Shown: in pieces, positions 18,412-55,472 of the stretch
How positions within the stretch are numbered: the first letter of the stretch is position 1
How the letters are laid out: every line of letters starts with the position of its first letter
NCBI GenBank assembly: GCA_025055235.1
Contig: JANWYN010000064.1
Location: 1-64,000 of the forward strand
DNA length: 64,000 bases
Direction: 5' to 3'
Source: Candidatus Roseilinea sp.
GTDB taxonomy: Bacteria; Chloroflexota; Anaerolineae; J036; Brachytrichaceae
Position numbers and translations under genes: made by a program
Notes under the pieces: generated by a model
Told to the model about the DNA's origin: nothing
The model's database searches: none
The model's input: only the letters and a program-made list of their open reading frames with translations

Positions 18412-18417
18412 TCCGCT

Positions 18418-18510
18418 ATTTCACATTTCTCATCTTTCATCTTTCATTTCCGGACGAGCTGCGACAAATGGAAGATGAAAGATAAGAGATGAAAGATGAA
18501 AGATGACTAA
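18418..18510. repeat. Heptamer foldback (CATCTTT / AAAGATG)
   Basis: Fills the 104-nt gap between nuoG and nuoH. The left arm has three CATCTTT-type words (18428-18450). The right arm has five AAAGATG-type words (18470-18507). The arms are complementary around ccggacgagctgcgac. Confidence 0.9.
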
Positions 18511-27097: not shown

Positions 27098-27173
27098 TCG
27101 GAATTGAGAATGAAGAATTGAGAATGGTGAAAACCACCTTTCTCAATTCTCAATTCTCAATTCTTCATTTGTC
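27098..27173. repeat. Heptamer foldback (AATTGAG / CTCAATT)
   Basis: Between nuoA and nuoB. The left arm is gaattgagaatgaagaatt, the loop has GGTG-aaaa-CCACC, and the right arm is tttctcaattctcaattctc. Near-perfect hairpin of more than 20 bp. The right edge reaches into the last codons of nuoA. Confidence 0.92.
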
Positions 27174-27655: not shown

Positions 27656-30600
27656 TCATGACAAATGCCGCGCGATCACCTCGACCGGATGCAGCGCAGC
27701 GCGGCCAGTGAAATGCAGGATTTGCTCGCGGCAGGACGTGCCCGGCGCGACGATCAACGTCTCGGCGCTCGCCGCGCGCACCGCTGGCAGCAGCGCCAGC
27801 TCACCGATCTGCCGCGACAGGTCGTAGTGCTCTGCCTCGTAGCCGAACGCGCCGGCCATACCGCAACAGGTCGCATCCACTTCGCACACATCGTATCCGG
27901 CGGATGTTAAAAGCGCGCGCGTCGCTTGCATCCCCCACAGCGCCTTCTGGTGGCAGTGGCCGTGTAACAGGATCTTCGATCTTTCATCTTTCGTCTTTGA
28001 TTGGTCATGTGTCGCTTCGATGAAAGATGAAAGATGAGAGATGAGAAATTCCTCGACGCTCTGCGTCATCTGCGCCACGGCGTCGGCATCCTCGCCCGGC
28101 AACAGGTCGGGATAGTCATCTTTCAGCGCGCTAATGCAGCTTGGCTCCAGGCCGAGGATAGGCACGCCCTGCCGCGCCAGCGGGGCGAGCTGCTCCAAGT
28201 TAAAGCGCGCCCAGGCCAGCATGGCTTTCGGCTGGCCCTGCGAGAGGAGCGGCCGGCCGCAGCACCGCCACGGCGGCACGATCACTTGGCAGCCGGCTGC
28301 TTCGAGCACCTTCACAGCCGCGATGGCGACTTGAGGGTGGTTGTAGCGCGAGAAGGTGTCCACGAAGAGCGCCACGCGCGGTCTCGACACATCCGACCGG
28401 CGTGCACGGGCGGAGCGCGCCCACCACCGGTCGAACGTCCGGCGCTGGAACGCCGGCAGCGCGCGCTCCGGCGCGATGCGCAGCAACCGCTTGGCCAGAG
28501 CGCGATTGACCAACCAATTGGAGACCGGCGCAAATAGCGATGCCGCTGGCGCGAGCGACGCGATGCGTCCCAGCAGCCACGCACGTAGCGGCACGCCGCG
28601 CGCGTCGTAGAAGTGCGAGAGGAACTCGCTCTTCAACTTGCTCATGTCCACGCCGGCAGCGCACTCCGTGGCGCAGGCCTTGCAGCTCAGGCACAGGTCG
28701 AGGGCGGCTTTGACGTCTTCAGGCGATGGTTTTAGGGATTGGAGATCAGAGATTGGGAGATTAGAGATTGGAGATTGATCGAATCTCCAATCTCCAATCT
28801 CTAATCTCCTTTCCGACAGGAACTCGCGCAGCAAATTCGCCCGCCCCCGCGTGCTGTGCATCTCTTCGCGCGTGGCGCGGTACGACGGGCACATCACACC
28901 GCCGTCCAGCTTGCGGCACACGCCGCTGCCGTTGCACTGCTCCACCAGCGCGGCGAAGCTGCCGTTGTGGCGAAAGGCAAAAGTCGTTTGCAGCGGGCGC
29001 GTCGCGTAGGCCGGACCGTAGCGCAGGTGCGATTCCATCTCGACGGCGCGCACCTTCTTGCCGGGGTTGAGCAGGCCGCGCGGGTCGAAGGCGTCCTTCA
29101 ATTTGCAGAACGCCTGATACACATGCGGGCCGAAAAGCGCCTCGTTTTGATGCGAGCGCTCGTAGCCGTCGCCGTGCTCGCCGCTCATCGCCCCGCCCAA
29201 GTCGCGGCACAACGCCAGCGCGTCGCGGGCGATGCCCTTGAGCTGCGCCACGCCGTGCGCAGTGCGCAGGTTCACCAGCGGCCGCACGTGTAACACGCCG
29301 GCGCTGGCATGCGCGTAGAACGCGCCCGCGGTGCCATGCGCAGCGAAGATCGCGCTCAGCCGCTCGACGTATTCGGCCAGCCGCTCTACCGGCACGGCCA
29401 CGTCCTCCACGACGCTGACCGGCTTGGTCTGGCTGCGGATGCTCGTCAGCACGTTTAGGCCGATCTTGCGCACATACCACACGTCGGCCTGCGCCGCCGG
29501 ATCGAACAGCGGGCGCAGCGCGCAGGGCAAACGCTCGCGGGCGACCAACTGCTGCAGGCGCTCGACGCCGGCGCGCGCTTCGGCCGCGCTCTCGCCGTCG
29601 AATTCGATCACCAGCAAGCCCTCCGGTGTCGCCTGGCCGTCCAACCAGCCGATGCGCCCGCGACACTCCGGCAGTTCGCGAGCGGTGCGAATGAACATGC
29701 CGCCGATCAGCTCGATCGCCGACGGTTCGGTGGTGAGCAGCACCGGCACGGCGCGCATGGCCTCGACCAGCCCGTCGAATGCGGTGATGACCAGCGCCGT
29801 GTGCTTCGGCTTGGGGAACAGATACAGCGTCGCTTCGACGACCACGCCCAGCGTGCCCTCGGCGCCGGCGAACAGCGGCGCCAAGTTCAACTGGCTGATC
29901 TGCCTCAGATGGTTCTCCAGGTTGCTGCCCTGTCGCCGGGCGTTAGCCTCGGTCAGGCAGGCCGCCGGATGCGCCGGATCGTAGGCCAACATCTCGGCCA
30001 CGTAGTCCAGGTTGTAGCCGCTGGCGCGCCGCCATACTTTGGGGAAGTCGCGCCGGATCGCGTCCTCATGCGCGCGGACGATCTCCTGCACCCTCTCGGC
30101 AAGGGGAATGGATACAGAGTGACCGTCTCCCGGTCCCCTCGTCCCCTTGTCTCCCTGTCCCTCTATCCCCTTGTCACGATCCTGCGAACCAAACTCCGCC
30201 AACGATCCATCCGCCAGCACCACCTTGAGCGCAGTGACGTTGTCGGCGGTCATGCCGTAGCGGATAGAGTGCGAGCCGGTCGCGTTCGCGCCGATGACGC
30301 CACCGATGGCGGCGCGTTCGGCGCTGGCCGGGTCGGGGCCGAACTGCAACCCGTGCTGCGCCAGGCGCTTGTTCAACTGGCCTAGCACCAGCCCCGGCTG
30401 CACGCGCACGACGCGTCCGCTCGCATCCAGGTCGAGCAGCGCATCCATGTACTTGGTGAAGTCAACGACGACCCCCGGGCCGATGGACGAGCCGCACAGG
30501 CTGCTGCCGCCGCCACGAGGGGTGATCGGCACACTGTGTTCTGCGCACAGCGTCACGGTCGCGATCACATCATCGGTCGTCTTGGGCAGCACCACGCCCA

Positions 30601-30730
30601 GCGGCATCATCTGATAGTTGCTGGCGTCGGTGCTGTAGATCAGGCGCGTGGGGATGTCGAAACGGACTTCGCCGGCGATGTGGCGCGCCAATGCCTGCGC
30701 CAGTGGATGGTCGTGAGCTGGGGACGGCAT
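27656..30730 (-). CDS. FAD-linked oxidase / Fe-S oxidoreductase fusion (GlcD-GlcF-like)
   Basis: 1024 aa. The N-terminal FAD_binding_4 domain (LPKTTDDVIATV, ITPRGGGSSLCGSSIGPGVVVDFTK) and FAD-oxidase C-terminal domain (to about 560, with SGEHGDG) are followed by Fe-S segments (CNGSGVC; CLSCKACATEC with CP-like end) and two CCG-type segments (CGRPLLSQGQ; TCCGMAGAFGYE). This is the layout of D-lactate or 2-hydroxyglutarate dehydrogenases of the GlcD/GlcF fusion type. Electrons likely go to quinone or another carrier; the substrate is not certain. Three heptamer elements are read in frame: residues about 182-204, 639-667 and 891-918. All three lie between conserved blocks, so the enzyme may still work. 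Confidence 0.88.
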   Translation of the reverse strand: MPSPAHDHPLAQALARHIAGEVRFDIPTRLIYSTDASNYQMMPLGVVLPKTTDDVIATVTLCAEHSVPITPRGGGSSLCGSSIGPGVVVDFTKYMDALLDLDASGRVVRVQPGLVLGQLNKRLAQHGLQFGPDPASAERAAIGGVIGANATGSHSIRYGMTADNVTALKVVLADGSLAEFGSQDRDKGIEGQGDKGTRGPGDGHSVSIPLAERVQEIVRAHEDAIRRDFPKVWRRASGYNLDYVAEMLAYDPAHPAACLTEANARRQGSNLENHLRQISQLNLAPLFAGAEGTLGVVVEATLYLFPKPKHTALVITAFDGLVEAMRAVPVLLTTEPSAIELIGGMFIRTARELPECRGRIGWLDGQATPEGLLVIEFDGESAAEARAGVERLQQLVARERLPCALRPLFDPAAQADVWYVRKIGLNVLTSIRSQTKPVSVVEDVAVPVERLAEYVERLSAIFAAHGTAGAFYAHASAGVLHVRPLVNLRTAHGVAQLKGIARDALALCRDLGGAMSGEHGDGYERSHQNEALFGPHVYQAFCKLKDAFDPRGLLNPGKKVRAVEMESHLRYGPAYATRPLQTTFAFRHNGSFAALVEQCNGSGVCRKLDGGVMCPSYRATREEMHSTRGRANLLREFLSERRLEIGDWRFDQSPISNLPISDLQSLKPSPEDVKAALDLCLSCKACATECAAGVDMSKLKSEFLSHFYDARGVPLRAWLLGRIASLAPAASLFAPVSNWLVNRALAKRLLRIAPERALPAFQRRTFDRWWARSARARRSDVSRPRVALFVDTFSRYNHPQVAIAAVKVLEAAGCQVIVPPWRCCGRPLLSQGQPKAMLAWARFNLEQLAPLARQGVPILGLEPSCISALKDDYPDLLPGEDADAVAQMTQSVEEFLISHLSSFIEATHDQSKTKDERSKILLHGHCHQKALWGMQATRALLTSAGYDVCEVDATCCGMAGAFGYEAEHYDLSRQIGELALLPAVRAASAETLIVAPGTSCREQILHFTGRAALHPVEVIARHLS
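27975..28056. repeat. Heptamer foldback inside FAD/Fe-S oxidoreductase gene (CATCTTT / AAAGATG)
   Basis: Left arm tcgatctttcatctttcgtc, spacer ggtcatgtgtcgcttc, right arm gatgaaagatgaaagatga. The same word pair as the nuoG-nuoH element, here in frame and encoding residues about 891-918, just before the HGHCHQKAL block. Confidence 0.9.
28728..28812. repeat. Heptamer foldback inside FAD/Fe-S oxidoreductase gene (GATTGGA / TCTCCAA)
   Basis: Five GATTGGA/GATTAGA-type words (28738-28778), a gatcga centre, then four complementary words (28782-28808). In frame, encoding residues about 639-667 before the Fe-S segment CLSCKACATEC. Confidence 0.92.
30119..30185. repeat. Heptamer element inside FAD/Fe-S oxidoreductase gene (CCCTTGT words)
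   Basis: Degenerate 7-8 bp words of the GTCCCCTT/GTCTCCCT kind in a run of about seven (30119-30178). Read in frame on the minus strand as a Gly/Asp/Lys-rich linker (RDKGIEGQGDKGTRGPGD). Confidence 0.88.
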
Positions 30731-35674: not shown

Positions 35675-38059
35675 TCACATCGCCTTCAGCTTCACCACCG
35701 TCACGCCATCGTCACCTTCGCCCTCCAGGCCGGTCTCGAACGACTGGACCGCAGGATCCGCCTTGATCGCATCGCGAATCGCGCGCCGCAGCGCCCCCGT
35801 GCCTTTGCCGTGGATCAGGCGCACGAACGGTAAGCCGGCGCGCGCTGCGCGATCGAGATAATCGCGCACCCGCGCCACGCCTTCCTCGGTCGTCAGGCCG
35901 CGCAGGTCGAGTTCGAGCGGGGGTGGTGGCACGCGCGGGATCGAAACGACCTCGTCGCGCACTTCGGCCTGCGACCGGCGCGCCAGCGCGCCTGGGCTCA
36001 CCCGCTCCAAGTCGTTCAGCTTCACGCGCATGCGCGCGCGCCCGATTTGCACATCGGCCTCCTCACCATCCACAGCATTGACCTCGGCGATCGCGCCGAG
36101 TGACTTGACGCGCACCGCATCGCCGGCCTGGATCGCGCGTTTAGGCTGTGGCTCGCGCGGCGCCGGCTTCGGCTTGTGCGCAGCCGCTGCTTCGACCAGC
36201 TTCTCCACGTCCTGCTCGATGCGCTTCACTTCGTCGAGCGAGCCGCCCGCCGCAACAATGCGGTTGCGCAAGCGGCGCACTTCGGCGCGCAACTGCTCGG
36301 TCTCGCGCAGCGCTTCTTCGCGCGCCTGCTCGATCAACGCCTTGCGCTCGTCCTCAATGGCGTTTAAGCGGGCGCGGATGCGCTCGGCGTTGGCCTCCGC
36401 CTCGCGCTGCGACTTGCGCGCGGCTTCGAGCGCCCGTTCGGCCTGCTGTTGCAGCCGGGCGATCTCGGCCAGCATGTCTTCTGCCCGCGCGACGTTGGCA
36501 TCTAAATACCGCCTGGCTGTAGATACGATCTCATCAGGCACGCCCAGCCGCTGAGCAATGGCAAACGCGTTCGACCGGCCGGGCAGCCCGATGGATAGCT
36601 TGTAAAGCGGGCGCAGCGTCTCATAGTCGAAAGCGACGTTGGCGTTCGCTGCACCCGGCGTCAGCGACGCCCAGGCCTTGAGCTCAGGGTAATGCGTGGC
36701 GACAACGCAGATGGCGCCGGTTTGCAGCAGGTATTCCAGGATCGCGCGTGCCAGGGCCGCGCCCTCCGCCGGATCGGTGCCGGCGCCCAGCTCGTCCAGC
36801 AATACCAGCGTACGCTCGTTCACTCGCTCGAGGAATGTGCGCAGGTTGGTCAGGTGCGCGCTGAACGTCGAAAGGCTTTGCTCGATGGATTGTTCGTCGC
36901 CGATGTCGGCATACACCGCCTCGAAGACGGGCAGGCGCGCGCGCTCGCAGGGGATGTGCAAGCCGCATTGCGCCATCAACGCCAACAAGCCGATCGTCTT
37001 GAGCGCGACGGTCTTGCCGCCGGTGTTTGGCCCGGTGATGACCAGGACGCGGACGTTATCCGGCAGGATCACGTCAATCGGCGTGACCGTCTCAGGGTTC
37101 AGCAGCGGGTGCCGCGCCTGCACAATGGCGACGCGAGACCCAGACGAACTCGCCTCTCCCCGTCCCCTTGTCTCCTTGTCAATCTGCGGCTTCACACTGC
37201 GCGTCGCCTCGGCATACTTCGCCTTGGCTAGCGCGAGATCGAAGCGGGCAATCGCCTCGACCGTGCGGATGATGCTCTCCGCTTCTGCGCCGACCCAGCC
37301 GGACAACGCCGCCAAGATGCGGCGCACCTCGCGCTCTTCGGCCAGTTGCAACTCCCGCCACTCGTTGTTGAGTTCCAACGTAGCCAACGGCTCGATGAAC
37401 AGCGTCATGCCGCTCGCGCTCTGGTCGTGCACTACGCCGGGGATGCGCCCTTTGAAGTCGGCCTTGACCGGGATGACGTAGCGGCCGCCGCGCTGGGTGA
37501 TGAGCGCCTCTTGCAGATAGGGCGCGTTGCTGGCGTCGCTGACCATGCGTTGCAGTTTGGCCAGCAGCCGGTCGTGCACCACGCGCACCTCGCGGCGGAT
37601 GGCGGCGAGCTCCGGCGACGCCGTGTCGCGCACTTCGCCGCTATCGTCAATGCAGCGGTTGATCTCGGCGACGAGCGCGCCGCTCGGCTCGATGGCGTTG
37701 GTGATAGTGGTGAGCTGTGGGTAGATCGCGCCGAAGCGCGACAGGGCGCGCTGGATGTTGCGCCCGCTCAGCAGCGTGTCGCGGATTTCGAGGAAGGTCT
37801 GCGGCTCCAACACGCCGCCGCGCGCGGCCAAGCGCACTGCATCGCGCACATCGCGCGCCCCGCCGATGGTGAGTTGGTCATTCTTGCCGAGCGCATCACG
37901 CGCTTCGGCCGTCTCGGCCAGGCGACGTTCCACTTCGGCGGGCTGCGTCGCCGGCTCCAACGCGCGCGCCAGCGCAGCGCTTGCGGAGAATGCGCAATAG
38001 CCTGCCAAGCGGTCGAGAATCTTCGGCAGCTCGAGCGTGTGGAGGTGCTTGGCGATCAC
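35675..38059 (-). CDS. mutS2: Endonuclease MutS2
   Basis: 794 aa. MutS core: DLFIEP-like TLFIEPLATLELNNEWRELQ, Walker A GPNTGGKTVALKTIG (about 345-360), VYADIGDEQSIEQSLSTFSAHL, Walker B LVLLDELGAGTDPAEGAAL and VATHYPELKAWA. A long coiled coil (about 520-620) precedes a C-terminal Smr nuclease domain (LDLRGLTTEEGVARV, LIHGKGTGALR). MutS2 acts on recombination intermediates or stalled ribosomes. A short heptamer run is read in frame at about residues 292-301. Confidence 0.95.
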   Translation of the reverse strand: MIAKHLHTLELPKILDRLAGYCAFSASAALARALEPATQPAEVERRLAETAEARDALGKNDQLTIGGARDVRDAVRLAARGGVLEPQTFLEIRDTLLSGRNIQRALSRFGAIYPQLTTITNAIEPSGALVAEINRCIDDSGEVRDTASPELAAIRREVRVVHDRLLAKLQRMVSDASNAPYLQEALITQRGGRYVIPVKADFKGRIPGVVHDQSASGMTLFIEPLATLELNNEWRELQLAEEREVRRILAALSGWVGAEAESIIRTVEAIARFDLALAKAKYAEATRSVKPQIDKETRGRGEASSSGSRVAIVQARHPLLNPETVTPIDVILPDNVRVLVITGPNTGGKTVALKTIGLLALMAQCGLHIPCERARLPVFEAVYADIGDEQSIEQSLSTFSAHLTNLRTFLERVNERTLVLLDELGAGTDPAEGAALARAILEYLLQTGAICVVATHYPELKAWASLTPGAANANVAFDYETLRPLYKLSIGLPGRSNAFAIAQRLGVPDEIVSTARRYLDANVARAEDMLAEIARLQQQAERALEAARKSQREAEANAERIRARLNAIEDERKALIEQAREEALRETEQLRAEVRRLRNRIVAAGGSLDEVKRIEQDVEKLVEAAAAHKPKPAPREPQPKRAIQAGDAVRVKSLGAIAEVNAVDGEEADVQIGRARMRVKLNDLERVSPGALARRSQAEVRDEVVSIPRVPPPPLELDLRGLTTEEGVARVRDYLDRAARAGLPFVRLIHGKGTGALRRAIRDAIKADPAVQSFETGLEGEGDDGVTVVKLKAM
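37155..37184. repeat. Short heptamer run inside mutS2 (CCCCTTGTCTC words)
   Basis: ctctccccgtccccttgtctccttgtc, the same word set as the run at 30119. In frame, it encodes DKETRGRGE in mutS2 just before RVAIVQARHPLL, a variable loop. Confidence 0.75.
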
Positions 38060-38087
38060 GCCGGGATTGTAGCATTCGCAGGGCTGC

Positions 38088-38124
38088 GAGATTGGAGATT
38101 AGAGATTGGGGATTGGAGATTGCT
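38088..38124. repeat. Heptamer run (GATTGGA words)
   Basis: Four or five words GAGATTG/GATTAGA upstream of mutS2 in the 298-nt gap to the cyclodeaminase-like gene; same word as the element at 28728. The rest of that gap is the mosaic repeat described at 38190. Confidence 0.8.
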
Positions 38125-39939: not shown

Positions 39940-40009
39940 GGAATTGAAATCGAGTATCGAGAAGAGCGCCTTCGCAATTCTCAATTCTCGATTCTCAATT
40001 TTCAATTTA
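39940..40009. repeat. Heptamer element (ATTCTCA words)
   Basis: ggaattgaaatcgagtatcgagaa followed by five ATTCTCA-type words (39976-40008). Shares its word with the nuoA-nuoB, 42896 and gcvT elements. Confidence 0.85.
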
Positions 40010-40011
40010 CT

Positions 40012-41076
40012 ATGCGCTTGCTCAAAGCCCTCATCCTTCTCCTGGCTGCGAGCAGCGTGATCGCGCTCATCGTCGCCTCGCGCGCGACGCCGCGCCCGCT
40101 GACCGCCATCGCCGCGGTGCAGCCGGCGATGAACTTCGGCTATGTGCGCATCGAGGGCGTAGTGACGGCTTATCCCACCCTCTCGGAGCAAGACAAGTTT
40201 CTCTCGTTTCGCGTGTGGGACGCCAGCGGCGAGTTGCGCGTCACGGCCTATCGCGCTGTGGTCGAGCGCCTGCTGGCCGAGCGTCGCATCCCCCTGCCCG
40301 GCGACCGCGTCAGCGTCGAAGGCACGCTACGCATTCGCGATGACGAGCCATCGCTCATCCTGAACACCGCCGAAGGGCTGACCATCGCGGCGCCGCCCGC
40401 TGCCCTGATCCGCCTCGCTGCGCTGGATGACATTGCGCTGGGTGAGCGTGTGCAGACCGCCGGTCAAGTGCGTCGTATCCGCAGCGCAGGCGACCGGTTG
40501 CGCATCGTCTCCGTCCGCGACGGCGATGCGACCACTGACGTCGTGCTCCCGCTCGATTTGCCGGCGTTCATCGCTGCACCGCAGCTCGGCATAGGCGAAT
40601 GGATCAGCGTCACCGGCGCAGTTGGAGAATACCGCGGTGCGAAACAAGTGCTTGCATTGCAAATAGATATCTCGCAGGAAGGTACAACGCCCGCAGCCGG
40701 CCACTTCCGGCCAATCGCCGAACTCGGCGATCATCTGCTCGGCCGGTGGGTCGGCATCGAGGGTGTGGTGAGCGACCTCCGGCCGTTCAAGCAAGGCATG
40801 CGCGTGGATGTGACCGACGCATCCGGCGGCTCGATCGTCGTCGTGATATTCGACTCGGTGTGGCAGAACCTGCCCTTCTCGACCACGCTAAGTGTAGATG
40901 ACCGCGTTCGCGTGGCGGGTGAACTAACTGAGTATCGCGGGCAAGTCGAGTTGCTGCCCGAGCTGCCGGTGGATGTCGCGCTGGCCGATGAGCCAAGCAG
41001 CAGCGCGCCTGGCGATGACTCGATCACCGCTCGAGCGTTACTGCGCATCTCTCGGCGATCCGTTCAACTTGCATGA
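40012..41076 (+). CDS. Secreted triple OB-fold protein (paralogue)
   Basis: 354 aa with an N-terminal membrane segment or signal (LLKALILLLAASSVIALIVAS). OB-like units: VRIEGVVTAY..FRVWDASGEL, VQTAGQVRRI..SVRDGD and VGIEGVVSDLRPFKQGMRVDVTDASGGSI with VRVAGELTEYRGQVELLP. Compare VIQSERRFKAGMRYVVSDDTG in the nuo-operon protein. The last unit is the closest match (RPFKQGMRVDVTD/ERRFKAGMRYVVSD). Function is unknown; likely anchored outside the cytoplasm. Confidence 0.78.
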   Translation: MRLLKALILLLAASSVIALIVASRATPRPLTAIAAVQPAMNFGYVRIEGVVTAYPTLSEQDKFLSFRVWDASGELRVTAYRAVVERLLAERRIPLPGDRVSVEGTLRIRDDEPSLILNTAEGLTIAAPPAALIRLAALDDIALGERVQTAGQVRRIRSAGDRLRIVSVRDGDATTDVVLPLDLPAFIAAPQLGIGEWISVTGAVGEYRGAKQVLALQIDISQEGTTPAAGHFRPIAELGDHLLGRWVGIEGVVSDLRPFKQGMRVDVTDASGGSIVVVIFDSVWQNLPFSTTLSVDDRVRVAGELTEYRGQVELLPELPVDVALADEPSSSAPGDDSITARALLRISRRSVQLA

Positions 41077-42895: not shown

Positions 42896-43034
42896 GGAGT
42901 CAGAGATCAGAAATCAGAAGGTCAGATGTCAGACGTCAGAGTCCAGAAGCCAGAGCCCAGGCACTCAGAAGTCAAGAACCGGAAAGCAGAACACGATTCT
43001 CAATTCTCAATTCTCAATTTTCAATTTTCAATTT
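42896..43034. repeat. Heptamer element (CAGAAGT and ATTCTCA words)
   Basis: Longest element: about twelve TCAGAAG/CCAGAGC-type words (42899-42990), then five or six ATTCTCA-type words (42993-43030). Two word families abut. Lies between the FecR-like gene and accC. Confidence 0.9.
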
Positions 43035-44531
43035 CTACTCCCAGTTCTTGCGCAAGCTCCAGCGCCAATAGGAGACGTGGCCGTGATCGGTGCGCTCGAT
43101 GCGCTCGGCGGCCTCGCGCGCTTGCCGGTGTGCGATCAGCGTAGCCGCAATGGCGGCCACGTCACTGTGCGCCTGGGACTGTTCCTCGATCTCGAAGCGG
43201 TCCTCGACGAAGCGCGTATCGAACTGGCCGGCTTGGAAGCGCGCGGAGCGGAAGAGTTGTTGGTGGAACGGCACGTTGGTCTTCACGCCCATGATGCGGA
43301 ATTCGTTCAGCGCGCGCTTCATGCGCACGATCGCTTCGGCGCGCGTATCACCCCAACAGATCAGCTTGGCGATCATCGAGTCGTAGTATGGCGTGACCTC
43401 GTAGCCTTCGTATACGCCGCTTTCGACGCGCACGCCCGGGCCGGTGGGAAAGTTGATGCGCTTGATGATGCCGGTGCTGGGCATGAAGTTGGCGAACGGA
43501 TCCTCGGCGTTGATGCGGCACTCGATCGCCCAGCCGGTCATCTTGATGTTCTTTTGCTTGTAGCGCAGCGGTCGCCCGCGCGCGATGCGAATCTGCTCCT
43601 TGACGATGTCCACGCCGGTCACGCGCTCAGTGATCGGATGCTCCACCTGCAGGCGCGTGTTCATCTCCATGAAGTAGAAGTTGCCCTGCTTATCGAGCAG
43701 GCATTCGATCGTGCCGGCGTTGACGTAGTTCACGGCCTGCGCCGCGCGCACCGCCATCTCACCCATCTTGGCGCGCAACTCTGGGCTCACCGCCGGCGAT
43801 GGGCACTCTTCCACCAGTTTCTGGCGCCGGCGCTGCAAGCTGCACTCGCGTTCGCCGAGGTGGATGATGTTGCCGTGATGGTCACCCAGCAATTGAAACT
43901 CGATATGCCGCGCGCCCTCGACCAGCTTCTCCAGATACACCGAGCCGTCGCCGAAGGCCGATTCGGCTTCGCGTCGCGCGCTGGCCAACAACGCCGGCAT
44001 CTCCTCCAGGCTGTGCACCTCGCGCTGCCCCTTGCCACCGCCGCCTGCGCTGGCCTTGATCAGCAGCGGGAATCCGATCTTGGGCGCGATGTTCAGCAGC
44101 TCTTCGTCGGACAGATCCGCTTCACCTTCCGTACCGGGGATGACAGCAACGCCGGCGCGCTGCACCGTTGCGCGCGCCACGGCTTTGTCGCCCATCTTAG
44201 CAATGGCGCTCGGCGATGGGCCGATAAAAACGATACCCTCATCGGCGCAGGCTTGCGCGAAGTCCTCGCGCTCGGCCAAAAAGCCGTAGCCGGGGTGGAT
44301 CGCGTCGGCTTCGGCCTTCTTCGCGACCTCGAGGATCTTGTCAATGCGGAGGTACGAGTCGCGCGAAGGCGGCGGGCCGATGTGATAGGCCTCGTCGGCA
44401 AAACGCACGTGCAGCGCGTTGCGATCCACGTCGGAATAGACGGCGACCGTACTGATGCCCAGCTCGTGACAGGCGCGGATGATGCGCACGGCAATTTCGC
44501 CGCGGTTGGCGATCAGAACCTTCTTGAACAT
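43035..44531 (-). CDS. accC: Acyl-CoA carboxylase, biotin carboxylase subunit
   Basis: 498 aa from the ATG at 44531. ATP-grasp enzyme that carboxylates biotin. Seen: KVLIANRGEIAVRIIRACHELGI, IHPGYGFLAE, GGGGKGQREV (ATP-loop), ERECSLQRRRQKLVEECPSP, FYFMEMNTRLQVEHPITE and IECRINAED. Two substitutions are notable: GQR where GMR is usual, and QRRRQK where QRRHQK is usual. The C-terminal extension to about 498 residues fits stand-alone biotin carboxylase of propionyl/acetyl-CoA carboxylases. The carboxyltransferase and BCCP are not in the window. Confidence 0.93.
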   Translation of the reverse strand: MFKKVLIANRGEIAVRIIRACHELGISTVAVYSDVDRNALHVRFADEAYHIGPPPSRDSYLRIDKILEVAKKAEADAIHPGYGFLAEREDFAQACADEGIVFIGPSPSAIAKMGDKAVARATVQRAGVAVIPGTEGEADLSDEELLNIAPKIGFPLLIKASAGGGGKGQREVHSLEEMPALLASARREAESAFGDGSVYLEKLVEGARHIEFQLLGDHHGNIIHLGERECSLQRRRQKLVEECPSPAVSPELRAKMGEMAVRAAQAVNYVNAGTIECLLDKQGNFYFMEMNTRLQVEHPITERVTGVDIVKEQIRIARGRPLRYKQKNIKMTGWAIECRINAEDPFANFMPSTGIIKRINFPTGPGVRVESGVYEGYEVTPYYDSMIAKLICWGDTRAEAIVRMKRALNEFRIMGVKTNVPFHQQLFRSARFQAGQFDTRFVEDRFEIEEQSQAHSDVAAIAATLIAHRQAREAAERIERTDHGHVSYWRWSLRKNWE

Positions 44532-52275: not shown

Positions 52276-54165
52276 ATGGACGACTTTCTCATTCGCGGCG
52301 CGCTGGCCGACGTTGATCCCGACGTGGCCGAATTGATCCGGCACGAGCATGCGCGCCAGCTCGACAAGCTCATCATGATCGCCAGCGAATCCTACGTGCC
52401 GGCGGCGGTGCGCGAGGCCGAGGGTTCGGTCTTCCAGAACATCTATGCCGAAGGCTATCCGCACGCCGACATGCACGGCATGACCGAGGACGAGATCCTG
52501 GACTACGAGTCGCAACTGGCGTTCTACCGGCGCAATGGCGACCGGCGCTATTACAAGGGCGTCGAATACTGCAACTTGGTCGAGGCGCTGGCGCAGCGGC
52601 GCGGTGCCGAAGTGTTCTGCCCGCCCGGCATGTCGCCGGAGCAGGTGTTCGTCAACGTGCAACCGCTCAGCGGGGCCGTGGCCAACACAGCGATCTACGA
52701 GGCGCTGGTGCAGCCGGGCGACACGGTGATGACGCTCGACTTGTTGCACGGCGGCCATCTCTCGCACGGCAGCCCGGTCAACGTCACCGGCCATCGCCAG
52801 CGCATCGTGCACTATCGCGTGAACGAAGAGACCGAGCTGCTGGACTACGAGGAGATCTACGAGCTGGCCCAGCGCGAGAAGCCGAAGATGATCATCGCCG
52901 GTTACACGTCGTATCCGTGGGCGCCCGACTTCCACAAGTTCCGCGCCATCGCCGATTCGGTTGGCGCGTATCTATTAGCCGACATCGCGCACACTGCCGG
53001 CATGGCCGCTGCCGGCGTCTATCCCAACCCGGTCGGCGTCGCGCACGTCACATCGTTCACCACCCACAAGACGATGATGGGGCCGCGCGGCGCAGTCATC
53101 ATCACCACCGACCCAGAGCTGGCCAAGCGCATAGACCGCGCCGTGTTCCCGGGCATGCAAGGCGGCCCGCACCTGAACAAGATCGCCGGCATGGCCGTCA
53201 TGTTCAAGCTGGCGAAGACGCCGCAGTTCAAAGCGCTCCAGCGCCAGATCGCCAAGAACGCCGTTGCGCTCAGCGACGGCTTGAAGGCCAACGGCCTACG
53301 CGTGGTGCACGGCGGCACCAACACGCACATGGTCTTGCTGGATTGCAAGTCCATCGCCCAGCACGACGGCGTGCCGCTGATGGGCAACGTGGCGTCGCGC
53401 ATCCTCGACCTGATCGGCATCGTGTGCAACCGCAACACCATCCCCGGCGACAAAGACGCCAGCCGGCCGAGCGCGCTGCGCTTCGGCACGCCGTGGGTCA
53501 CCCAGCGCGGCTTGAAGGAAGACGACATGCGCGAGATCGCCGACGTGATCGCGCTGGTGCTCAAGACGGCCAAGCCGCACACCATCCCGACGAAGAAATC
53601 CGTGGCCTACACCGCGCGCGTGGATTTCGATGCGCTGATGGAAGGCGTGTCGCGCATCAACGCACTGGTCGCCAAGGCCAGCCGCGACTTCGACCTGCCG
53701 CACGAGGGCTATCCGTTCGTGTGGTATGCGACGAATGGGCAGGAGCCGGGGGCCAGGGACCAGGGGTCAGGGGCCGGGGATCAGGGACTCGGTGCCGGGG
53801 GTCAGGGCTCGGGGCCTAGGGGACAGGAGTCGGAGGTCGGGAGTCGGGAATCGGAAGTGGGGAGGCGGATCGAGGTATGTGGTGCGCAGTCGGCGGCGTT
53901 CCTAAGCGTCGTCTTGGGCGTGGACGTGGACACGCTGGCCGATGGCGCCGAGGTGACCGTGCTCGGGCGCAACCGCACACCGCTGTGCACGGCGAGGTTG
54001 ACCCGCGCCGCCGGCGGCTACGCGCTCGACGCGCCGCAGGACAAAGCGTCGCGCGTCACACAATGGCTGCGCGCGCTCTCCGACGGCTACGTGATCTTCG
54101 ACGACGCCGACGTGGGCATCAACATCCCCGGGCCGGTAGTGGTGAGATTGGTTGCTGGTCGCTAG
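52276..54165 (+). CDS. glyA: Serine hydroxymethyltransferase with C-terminal extension
   Basis: 629 aa, against about 420 for most GlyA. The SHMT core (residues 1-488) has SESYVPAAVREAEGS, the NIYAEGYP region, HGGHLSHGSPV, ADIAHTAGMAAAG and the PLP-Lys site TTHKTMMGPRGA (Lys near 265). A repeat-derived linker (about 489-532) joins a roughly 95-residue C-terminal domain (CGAQSAAFLSVVLGVDVDTLADGAEVTVLG to the end) that I cannot assign. Makes glycine and 5,10-methylene-THF. AGGAG is 9 nt before ATG. The stop lies inside a heptamer element; gcvT is 110 nt downstream. Confidence 0.92.
   Translation: MDDFLIRGALADVDPDVAELIRHEHARQLDKLIMIASESYVPAAVREAEGSVFQNIYAEGYPHADMHGMTEDEILDYESQLAFYRRNGDRRYYKGVEYCNLVEALAQRRGAEVFCPPGMSPEQVFVNVQPLSGAVANTAIYEALVQPGDTVMTLDLLHGGHLSHGSPVNVTGHRQRIVHYRVNEETELLDYEEIYELAQREKPKMIIAGYTSYPWAPDFHKFRAIADSVGAYLLADIAHTAGMAAAGVYPNPVGVAHVTSFTTHKTMMGPRGAVIITTDPELAKRIDRAVFPGMQGGPHLNKIAGMAVMFKLAKTPQFKALQRQIAKNAVALSDGLKANGLRVVHGGTNTHMVLLDCKSIAQHDGVPLMGNVASRILDLIGIVCNRNTIPGDKDASRPSALRFGTPWVTQRGLKEDDMREIADVIALVLKTAKPHTIPTKKSVAYTARVDFDALMEGVSRINALVAKASRDFDLPHEGYPFVWYATNGQEPGARDQGSGAGDQGLGAGGQGSGPRGQESEVGSRESEVGRRIEVCGAQSAAFLSVVLGVDVDTLADGAEVTVLGRNRTPLCTARLTRAAGGYALDAPQDKASRVTQWLRALSDGYVIFDDADVGINIPGPVVVRLVAGR
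53740..53870. repeat. Heptamer element inside glyA (GGGTCAG and GGGAGTCG words)
   Basis: About ten words of the GGGTCAG/GGGGCCG type then GGAGTCG/GGAATCG-type words. Read in frame as a Gly/Ser/Glu/Arg linker between the SHMT core and the C-terminal domain. Confidence 0.88.
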
Positions 54166-54275: not shown

Positions 54276-55472
54276 ATGGCCGACCTCAAACGCACTGCCC
54301 TGTTTGAGACGCACAAGCAGCTCGGCGCGCGCATGGCGCCGTTCGGCGGATGGGAGATGCCGCTGTGGTACGCCTCGGCGCGCGAGGAGCACCTGGCCGT
54401 GCGCACCGCCGCCGGCCTGTTCGACGTCAGCCACATGGGCATGTTCGATGTGCGCGGGCCGGACGCCTGCGCCTTCCTCGACCGCGTCGGCACAAACGAC
54501 GTGAGCAAGCTGGCCGTCGGCCGCTCACACTACAGCTACATGCTCGACGAGCATGGCAACGTGGTGGACGACATCATGGTCTACCGTGTCGAGCCAGAGC
54601 GCTACATCGTCGTCGTCAACGCCGCCAACAACGACAAGGATTGGGCCTGGCTGCACACTCACGTCGGCGACTTCCGCTGTGCATTGCGTGACCTGCGCGA
54701 TCCGGCCTCCGGCGCAGACCGGCGCGTTGACCTCGCTCTGCAAGGCCCTAGGTCGCTGGAGATTTTGCAGCGCCTCATTCTCAATTCTCAATTCTCAATT
54801 CTCAATTCCCTCCCATACACCGGCGTGATGCGCGCCTCGCTCGCCGGCCATGATGTCTTCATCTCGCGCACCGGCTACACCGGTGAGCGCATCGCCTATG
54901 AGATCTTCGTGCACCCGGATGCGTCGGTCGCGCTGTGGCATGCGCTGCTGGACGCCGGCCGCGACCTGGGCCTGAAGCCGTGTGGGCTGGCCGCGCGCGA
55001 CAGCCTGCGCACCGAGGCCGGCCTGCCGCTCTACGGCCACGAGCTGGGCGGGCCGCTCAACCTAGCCCCGTGTCACATCGGCTTCGACAACTTCGTGAAG
55101 ACCGGCAAGGCCGCCGACTTCATCGGCAAGGCCGCCTATTTGGAGAAGGCGGCGCGCAACACATCGAAGATGATCCGCTTCCGCATGAACGAGAAGGGCG
55201 TGCGGCCGAGCAAGCTGGGCGACCCGGTGCTCGAGAGGCGCGGCCGGGTGATCGGCACGGTCACCTCCTGCGCGCAGGACGGCGAAGGCTACCTGCTGGG
55301 CATGGCGCTGGTCGAGCAGTCGGCGGGCGCGGAAGAGGGCAGTGTGATCTACATCGTCGCGCTGCCGGAGCGCATACCCGAACCGCTCAAGCCGTTCGCG
55401 CCGCCGGGCAGCCGCACACTGATGCCGGACGCAGCGACGGTGCTTTCGCGCTTCCCACCGCGGAGGGGGTGA
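54276..55472 (+). CDS. gcvT: Aminomethyltransferase, glycine cleavage T protein
   Basis: 398 aa. Seen: LFETHKQLGARMAPFGGWEMPLWY, HLAVRTAAGLFDVSHMGMFDVRG, YSYMLDEHGNVVDDIMVYR, SRTGYTGERIAYEIF, LGLKPCGLAARDSLRTEAGLPLYGHEL and IGTVTS. Transfers the methylene of aminomethyl-H-protein to THF, making 5,10-methylene-THF. Same transcript as glyA is likely. A heptamer run (54774-54813) is read in frame as an LNSQFSI-type loop. GcvH and GcvP are not in the window. Confidence 0.95.
   Translation: MADLKRTALFETHKQLGARMAPFGGWEMPLWYASAREEHLAVRTAAGLFDVSHMGMFDVRGPDACAFLDRVGTNDVSKLAVGRSHYSYMLDEHGNVVDDIMVYRVEPERYIVVVNAANNDKDWAWLHTHVGDFRCALRDLRDPASGADRRVDLALQGPRSLEILQRLILNSQFSILNSLPYTGVMRASLAGHDVFISRTGYTGERIAYEIFVHPDASVALWHALLDAGRDLGLKPCGLAARDSLRTEAGLPLYGHELGGPLNLAPCHIGFDNFVKTGKAADFIGKAAYLEKAARNTSKMIRFRMNEKGVRPSKLGDPVLERRGRVIGTVTSCAQDGEGYLLGMALVEQSAGAEEGSVIYIVALPERIPEPLKPFAPPGSRTLMPDAATVLSRFPPRRG
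54774..54813. repeat. Short heptamer run inside gcvT (ATTCTCA words)
   Basis: Five ATTCTCA words, in frame; because 7 bp x 3 = 21 bp the encoded peptide repeats every 7 residues ([11 protein letters not shown]). Lies between LEILQRL and YTGVMRA. Confidence 0.9.

Follow-up and report, generated by a model that had tools for sequence, protein, structure and literature searches.

Rickettsia palindromic elements (RPEs) measure 105-150 bp and lie in frame in many conserved enzyme genes and also in intergenic DNA (Ogata et al. 2000, as reviewed in PMC2229807 and PMC10969869). Among repeats with a unit of 5-11 nt, heptanucleotide repeats are the commonest class in many bacteria (Mrazek 2007, as reported in PMC4679880). 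Heterocystous cyanobacteria carry STRR sequences, degenerate heptanucleotide hairpins that occur in P6b of the tRNA-Leu intron (PMC3488679) and in RNase P RNA (Vioque 1997, as cited in PMC2858038), and the Beggiatoaceae have a single heptamer word, TAACTGA, mostly before start codons, with ORF cases mainly at protein ends (PMC4679880).

The window analysed here, a 64-kb stretch of DNA, belongs to a genome of 3.99 Mb in 151 contigs (G000) that groups with Candidatus Roseilinea / Thermoflexales MAGs (Chloroflexota); its nearest relative is a closed congeneric genome, G006, and further genomes are given by number. No literature combining Roseilinea with repeats, and none on heptamer foldbacks inside Chloroflexota proteins, was found in a search of incomplete coverage. 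A sequence-only reading of the window had noticed three heptamer runs within one oxidoreductase gene and proposed tolerated, ongoing insertion or expansion in coding DNA. That single-gene scope proves too narrow, since the words occur genome-wide and the GcvT and SHMT genes of the same window also carry in-frame arrays (Table 1). The three runs are read here, at a probability of roughly 60%, as local copies of genome-wide, non-autonomous heptamer-armed foldbacks, which would be tolerated, filtered, slipping and homogenised in Candidatus Roseilinea.

Results

Table 1. The oxidoreductase gene, its three runs and other arrays, in window positions
Feature	Position	Strand	Remarks
YdiJ/GlcD-GlpC-like FAD and Fe-S oxidoreductase gene, host of the three runs	27656..30730	-	single ORF, 1024 aa
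Site 1, aa 182-204	30119..30187	-	degraded run of octamers and heptamers, GACAAGGGGATAGAGGGACAGGGAGACAAGGGG..., in the loop that follows the FAD-binding domain
Site 2, aa 640-668	28728..28813	-	heptamer foldback, arms (GAGATTR)n / (AATCTCY)n; Fer4_8 region, between two Cys motifs
Site 3, aa 892-919	27970..28056	-	heptamer foldback, arms (CTCATCT/TTCATCT)n and (GAAAGAT)n
Intergenic foldback of the site-3 word (TTTCATC / GATGAAA), adjoining nuoG	18417..18508	.	
Intergenic TTGAGAA-family foldback, nuoB-/nuoA-like genes	27106..27173	.	5' arm with TGAAGAA second word; 3' TTCTCAA arm
Intergenic array of the site-2 word GAGATTG	38087..38123	.	
TTCTCAA array, gene edge	39969..40013	.	
TTCTCAA/TTTTCAA array, gene edge	42990..43039	.	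position conserved in G006
In-frame GGGGTCA/GTCGGGA-type heptamer arrays near the SHMT C-terminus	53745..53868	+	gene at 52276-54165; shorter by 21 nt in G006, not present in G002
In-frame TTCTCAA array in the GcvT folate-binding domain	54772..54813	+	gene at 54276-55472; total length as in array-less orthologues

Three runs in one oxidoreductase gene

The host protein contains the Pfam domains FAD_binding_4, FAD-oxidase_C, Fer4_8 and CCG, and its top NCBIfam match is the YdiJ model at 549 bits, a score under the model's cutoff. With the repeat sites excluded, dN/dS against relatives is 0.11-0.13, and the gene is intact and under purifying selection. A spurious ORF was ruled out by the conserved domains, by positive coding scores on both sides and by the dN/dS of 0.11, and an assembly artefact by arrays at orthologous sites in independent assemblies, the closed genome G006 among them. 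The AlphaFold model has a mean pLDDT of 85.8; its two longest segments below 50 are residues 183-202 (site 1) and 644-663 (site 2), while site 3 lies in a block (901-910) with a mean of 55, and all three runs fall on low-confidence loops of the oxidoreductase.

The periodicity of the runs is far beyond chance. With 18 of 21 matches as the threshold, lag 7 flagged 582 bp of the window and lags 4-6 and 8-13 flagged 0 bp, while order-1 and order-3 Markov sequences gave 0 bp at every lag. The lag-7 peak was found again in 400 kb of G006, together with its harmonics at 14, 21 and 28.

Not all three runs are of the kind first described. Sites 2 and 3 are indeed heptamer foldbacks, with strong predicted RNA folding (-43.2 kcal/mol, z -8.6, and -19.0 kcal/mol, z -3.5, respectively), but site 1 is a degraded octamer array with a weak foldback (-30.1 kcal/mol, z -2.5, equalled by 4 of 200 shuffles). 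The frame claim holds, a single ORF spanning all three runs without a stop. The claim that words are shared with the nuo spacers holds for site 3, whose TTTCATC word lies in the spacer separating nuoG from the next gene; the site-2 word is found again at 38088-38123, outside the nuo spacers, and the spacer of the nuoB- and nuoA-like genes contains a TTCTCAA array instead. The supposed 7-residue peptide period is barely completed here, as the arms are just 20-30 nt long, but it is clear in longer arrays elsewhere (e.g. KTQDAGR).

Relatives fill the same loops differently or leave them empty, and this, together with the purifying selection on the gene, agrees with the earlier view that the runs are tolerated in coding DNA. 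In G006, site 1 holds an octamer array, GACAAGGG, and a short foldback; the site is a degraded mix of 7- and 8-mers in G000, is 24 nt shorter in G008 and G001 than in G006, and lacks an array in G002, G003, G005 and G007. An octamer run of the same word type, GTCCCCTT, was also seen at window positions 37162-37180, inside the gene at 35675-38059. The GAGATTR foldback of site 2 is found in three species (G000, G006 and G008), is replaced by a TTGAGAA-family foldback in G004 and by CAATCGY words in another genus (L014, L016), and has no counterpart in G001, G002, G003, G005 and G007. The site 3 array is present only in G000, and the array-less G006 and G003 have the same length there (117 nt).

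A genome-wide population of arrays

In 464 kb, 57 arrays were counted, of which 16 lay within genes, 14 at the edge of a gene and 27 in intergenic DNA. The interiors concerned include those of GcvT, SHMT, NuoG, methylmalonyl-CoA mutase (MCM), GalT, a GT4 glycosyltransferase and an amidohydrolase, and several of these arrays sit in the middle of a Pfam domain. Sixteen evenly spaced 20-kb stretches of G006 held interior arrays in 5 of 256 genes, which extrapolates to about 73 genes genome-wide (95% CI 24-170). In G000, 36 of 49 TTGAGAA arrays, a pattern-selected set and not a random sample, lie inside genes as called by a simple codon model, and in nearly all cases the coding score is positive on either side; by reading of the sequences, the genes probably include CarB, MetH, HisH, PrmC and MurD/MurE-like ligases. 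The heptamer foldbacks look like a genome-wide repeat family tolerated within working proteins. One CarB-like gene of 1160 aa (L298, G000 C1:17000-22000) has in-frame heptamer arrays at three separate places, differing in their words, and in another genus (G014) the GT4 gene L206 has a GAGATTG-type foldback that seems to be independent, at the glycosyltransferase loop also occupied in G006.

Orientation within genes is strongly biased. The coding strand of interior arrays in G000 reads TTCTCAA 132 times and TTGAGAA 21 times, and one-armed copies in this genome are nearly all in the stop-free orientation; the reverse orientation of the main-family word gives a TGA every 21 nt.

In aligned copies of the main family a 5' arm, GAATTGAGAATGMAGAATTGAGAATTGAGAAA, is followed by a loop of some 7-36 nt, different at every locus, and then by a 3' arm, TTTCTCAATTCTCAATTCTCAATTCTCAATTC; the whole measures about 70-110 nt. 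Inside genes an arm is most often exactly four words plus TT, and outside genes it reaches up to 51 nt. The arm consensus, with TGMAGAA as its second word, recurs inside and outside genes in several species, around loops that are unique. Mere selection against TGA within genes was ruled out as the source of TGMAGAA, which the non-coding copies have too. The MCM loop reads ACAGGTGACTCACCC between the arms in G006, ACAGGACTCA in G000 and ACCGGCAGCTCGCCC in the array-less G002, a comparison suggestive of retained host sequence between the arms.

A GC-rich hairpin of 46 nt, TCCCGCRATCCCRGCTCGCYGRAGGCTTCGCCRGAAGCGGGATCGGGA, was observed at three loci in two species: L439 (CarB of G006), L443 (a MurE-like gene of G006) and L378:1633-1700 (G004, where a GNAT-type domain precedes an ArgG-like part). 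Each time it lies in frame between CAATTCT units of a TTCTCAA array, with identical junctions, and it was seen nowhere else in the 3.1 Mb of loci examined.

Array density in the orthologous region is 26.6 per 100 kb in G000, 15 in G006 and 0-5 in the others, a difference of about 20-fold between sister species. The TTGAGAA family is common in the genomes G000, G004 and G006 and seldom seen in six sister species; as the word occurs in just 7 of 150 sampled Anaerolineae genomes, it was rejected as a marker of the class. Density differences this strong weigh on the reading adopted here, since they call for some lineage factor. This could be a trans-acting process specific to the Roseilinea lineage, in which heptamer arms drawn from a common vocabulary are copied into loops at hundreds of sites, coding and non-coding alike, continually giving core enzymes new short peptides; the factor would be present in the array-rich G000, G006 and G004 and lost from the array-poor sisters. 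Such a process is put forward as an improbable proposal.

The fixed unit length, the limited vocabulary, the near-constant arm length and the lineage-specific activity would also suit a dedicated enzyme, such as a template-directed polymerase or a reverse transcriptase, that writes heptamer arms into the genome. The likelihood of such a generator is close to negligible, because no linked candidate gene was found, RVT_1 genes are absent from the array-rich G006, so that a reverse transcriptase is not required, and homogenisation would account for the shared words without it. Elsewhere in the genus, reverse transcriptase genes (L409, L410, L411) were noted twice in G000 and once in G004, with no others among its nine genomes.

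Exchange, replacement and decay

Where an interior array retains an arm in G000 as well as in G006, synonymous differences affect 6 of 78 sites in the arms and 296 of 919 in the flanks of the same genes (pS 0.077 vs 0.322, P 2e-7). The arms had been pre-filtered at 85% identity or more, a mild filter given that divergence like that of the flanks predicts about 89%. Nonsynonymous change is not reduced in the arms (pN 0.060 vs 0.045 in the flanks), and on this comparison the arms give no sign of protein-level constraint. The roughly fourfold synonymous deficit fits homogenisation between loci, although recent independent re-insertion in both species could also leave little synonymous change. Arms not kept between the two genomes are replaced or absent. 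The words of the PrmC 5' arm switch coordinately, being of the TTGAGAA type in G000 and the TTGAAAA type in G006, and at MCM the loop carries CCCCTTA words in G006, against TTCTCAA words in both G000 and G004. Together, the synonymous deficit in the arms and these word switches suggest conversion as the homogenising process.

The same results bear on the idea that the peptides are ancient linkers, conserved and selected as parts of the protein. Some arrays are common to G000, G006 and G004 at the same loop, as that idea would have it; sister species, however, lack the arrays or have other words, the segments are predicted by AlphaFold to be disordered and the arms appear free of protein-level constraint. 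The sequence-only reading would have been refuted by identical peptides at equivalent sites of distant homologues; more distant homologues instead have short unrelated loops without these peptides, and an origin as ancient linkers is very improbable.

The proposed insertion and expansion are borne out in part. Net gains in multiples of three are seen at site 2, in MCM and in HisH, but at site 3 and in GcvT (78 nt) the length equals that of array-less orthologues (G006 and G003 for site 3), which points to replacement or homogenisation of pre-existing sequence. Shared arrays differ in length by 21, 42 or 63 nt at several loci and are equal at others; the differences between sister species lend indirect support to ongoing expansion.

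Copy-number differences in multiples of 21 nt, like the strong lag-7 periodicity, would be expected if the runs had grown in place from chance heptamer duplications by slippage alone, with foldbacks arising through hairpin-templated strand switching and shared words through convergence; polymerase slippage has been proposed for heptanucleotide repeats in bacteria (Mrazek 2007, as reported in PMC4679880). Purely local slippage is nevertheless rather unlikely. The same arm consensus, including the odd TGMAGAA word, stands at many unrelated loci in several species, and its sharing by unlinked loci speaks against slippage as the sole process; moreover, whole arms change word family at orthologous loops and there is almost no period other than 7.

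The cleanest empty site is in HisH, where G002 reads GGCGAATCC/CAGCTCAAAATCCCG and G006 has 27 nt more. The sequence-only reading had looked to target-site duplications as a sign of insertion, and none was found at this one clean site. The result weighs against RPE-, MITE- or REP-like transposition, by which the foldbacks would be non-autonomous elements mobilised by a transposase such as the REP-associated Y1. Dispersed palindromes, consensus arms and lineage-specific bursts would favour transposition, as would the greater number of Y1_Tnp genes in array-rich genomes (four in G006, three in G004, two in G000 and 0-1 in the others) and the 46-nt GC hairpin with its identical junctions. Against it, loops differ between copies, ends vary, several sites are same-length replacements and the Y1_Tnp genes are not flanked by repeats; a Y1/RAYT transposase is unsupported as the mover. 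Transposition of this kind is distinctly unlikely.

One array was recently transferred between species. Over the oxidoreductase gene, G008 is 94% identical to G001 and 84% identical to G006, yet a tract of about 200 nt around site 2 is identical to G006, including diagnostic flanking positions on both sides (L003 vs L002 and L005, codon columns about 808-877), and G001, the sister of G008, has no site-2 array. Because the identity spans the array and its flanks, the array moved between species by homologous recombination and not as a precise element; site 2 of G008 is the product of recent inter-species recombination. Decayed arrays were found in relatives in the GalT, Der-like and photolyase-like genes, and in array-poor species GalT and others contain arrays that are decaying into G+C-rich loops.

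Discussion

The data are brought together here in a model of dispersed foldbacks that persist within genes. Each copy has two arms of three to four heptamers in opposite orientation around a locus-unique loop, or one arm alone, and would land or grow at its locus. A copy would survive as a short disordered peptide if it lay in a flexible surface loop, had a net length divisible by three and stood in the TGA-free orientation, and copies failing these conditions of frame, orientation and loop would be purged. Dispersed arms would be kept alike, and word families swapped, through ectopic conversion over short tracts or through template switching, heptamer slippage would alter the number of words in frame-keeping units (21 nt), and in low-activity lineages the A+T-rich arms would decay to ordinary G+C-rich loop sequence.

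In-frame selfish DNA in working bacterial enzymes is known chiefly from the Rickettsiales and is now seen genome-wide in the Chloroflexota. The core genes affected include CarB, HisH, PrmC, GcvT and NuoG, and sister species have, lack or let decay the same element. Such species allow the birth, exchange and decay of new protein segments to be followed and the role of repeat DNA as raw material for protein loops to be tested.

Among known systems, REP/RAYT elements resemble the Roseilinea foldbacks in being short dispersed palindromes, and Roseilinea genomes have Y1 transposase genes; these genes, however, have no flanking palindromes, the arms are heptamer-periodic and the foldbacks often lie in genes. 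MITEs have terminal inverted repeats with a target-site duplication, of which the inverted arms are found here and the duplication, at the one clean site in HisH, is not; as for a related autonomous transposon, Y1_Tnp, the one transposase family searched for, is present but unbounded by repeats. Like TAACTGA, the arrays are abundant direct heptamer repeats, some within ORFs, but they comprise many words, form foldbacks and occupy interior loops of conserved enzymes.

The building unit resembles that of the cyanobacterial STRR, the degenerate heptanucleotide hairpins of Nostoc included, and of other bacterial heptamer repeats. Arrays and STRR alike are tandem degenerate 7-nt units, dispersed and of species-specific abundance, whose heptamers pair into hairpins of variable copy number, accept extra inserted sequence and sit in tolerant loops of functional molecules. 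The cyanobacterial repeats, however, lie in RNA loops or intergenic DNA, whereas those of Roseilinea lie in frame within many enzyme genes.

With RPEs the arrays share their in-frame insertion in conserved protein genes, which the protein tolerates, and the occurrence of intergenic copies; RPEs are known from RNA genes as well (tmRNA, RNase P RNA). RPEs differ in having a family-wide consensus that includes the loop and in their hosts, the Rickettsiales instead of the Chloroflexota; Roseilinea foldbacks share only heptamer arms of 20-30 nt around unique loops, with several word families and arms that look homogenised. By analogy, the Roseilinea foldbacks appear to behave like RPEs, as in-frame selfish DNA, while being built from heptamers of the cyanobacterial type.
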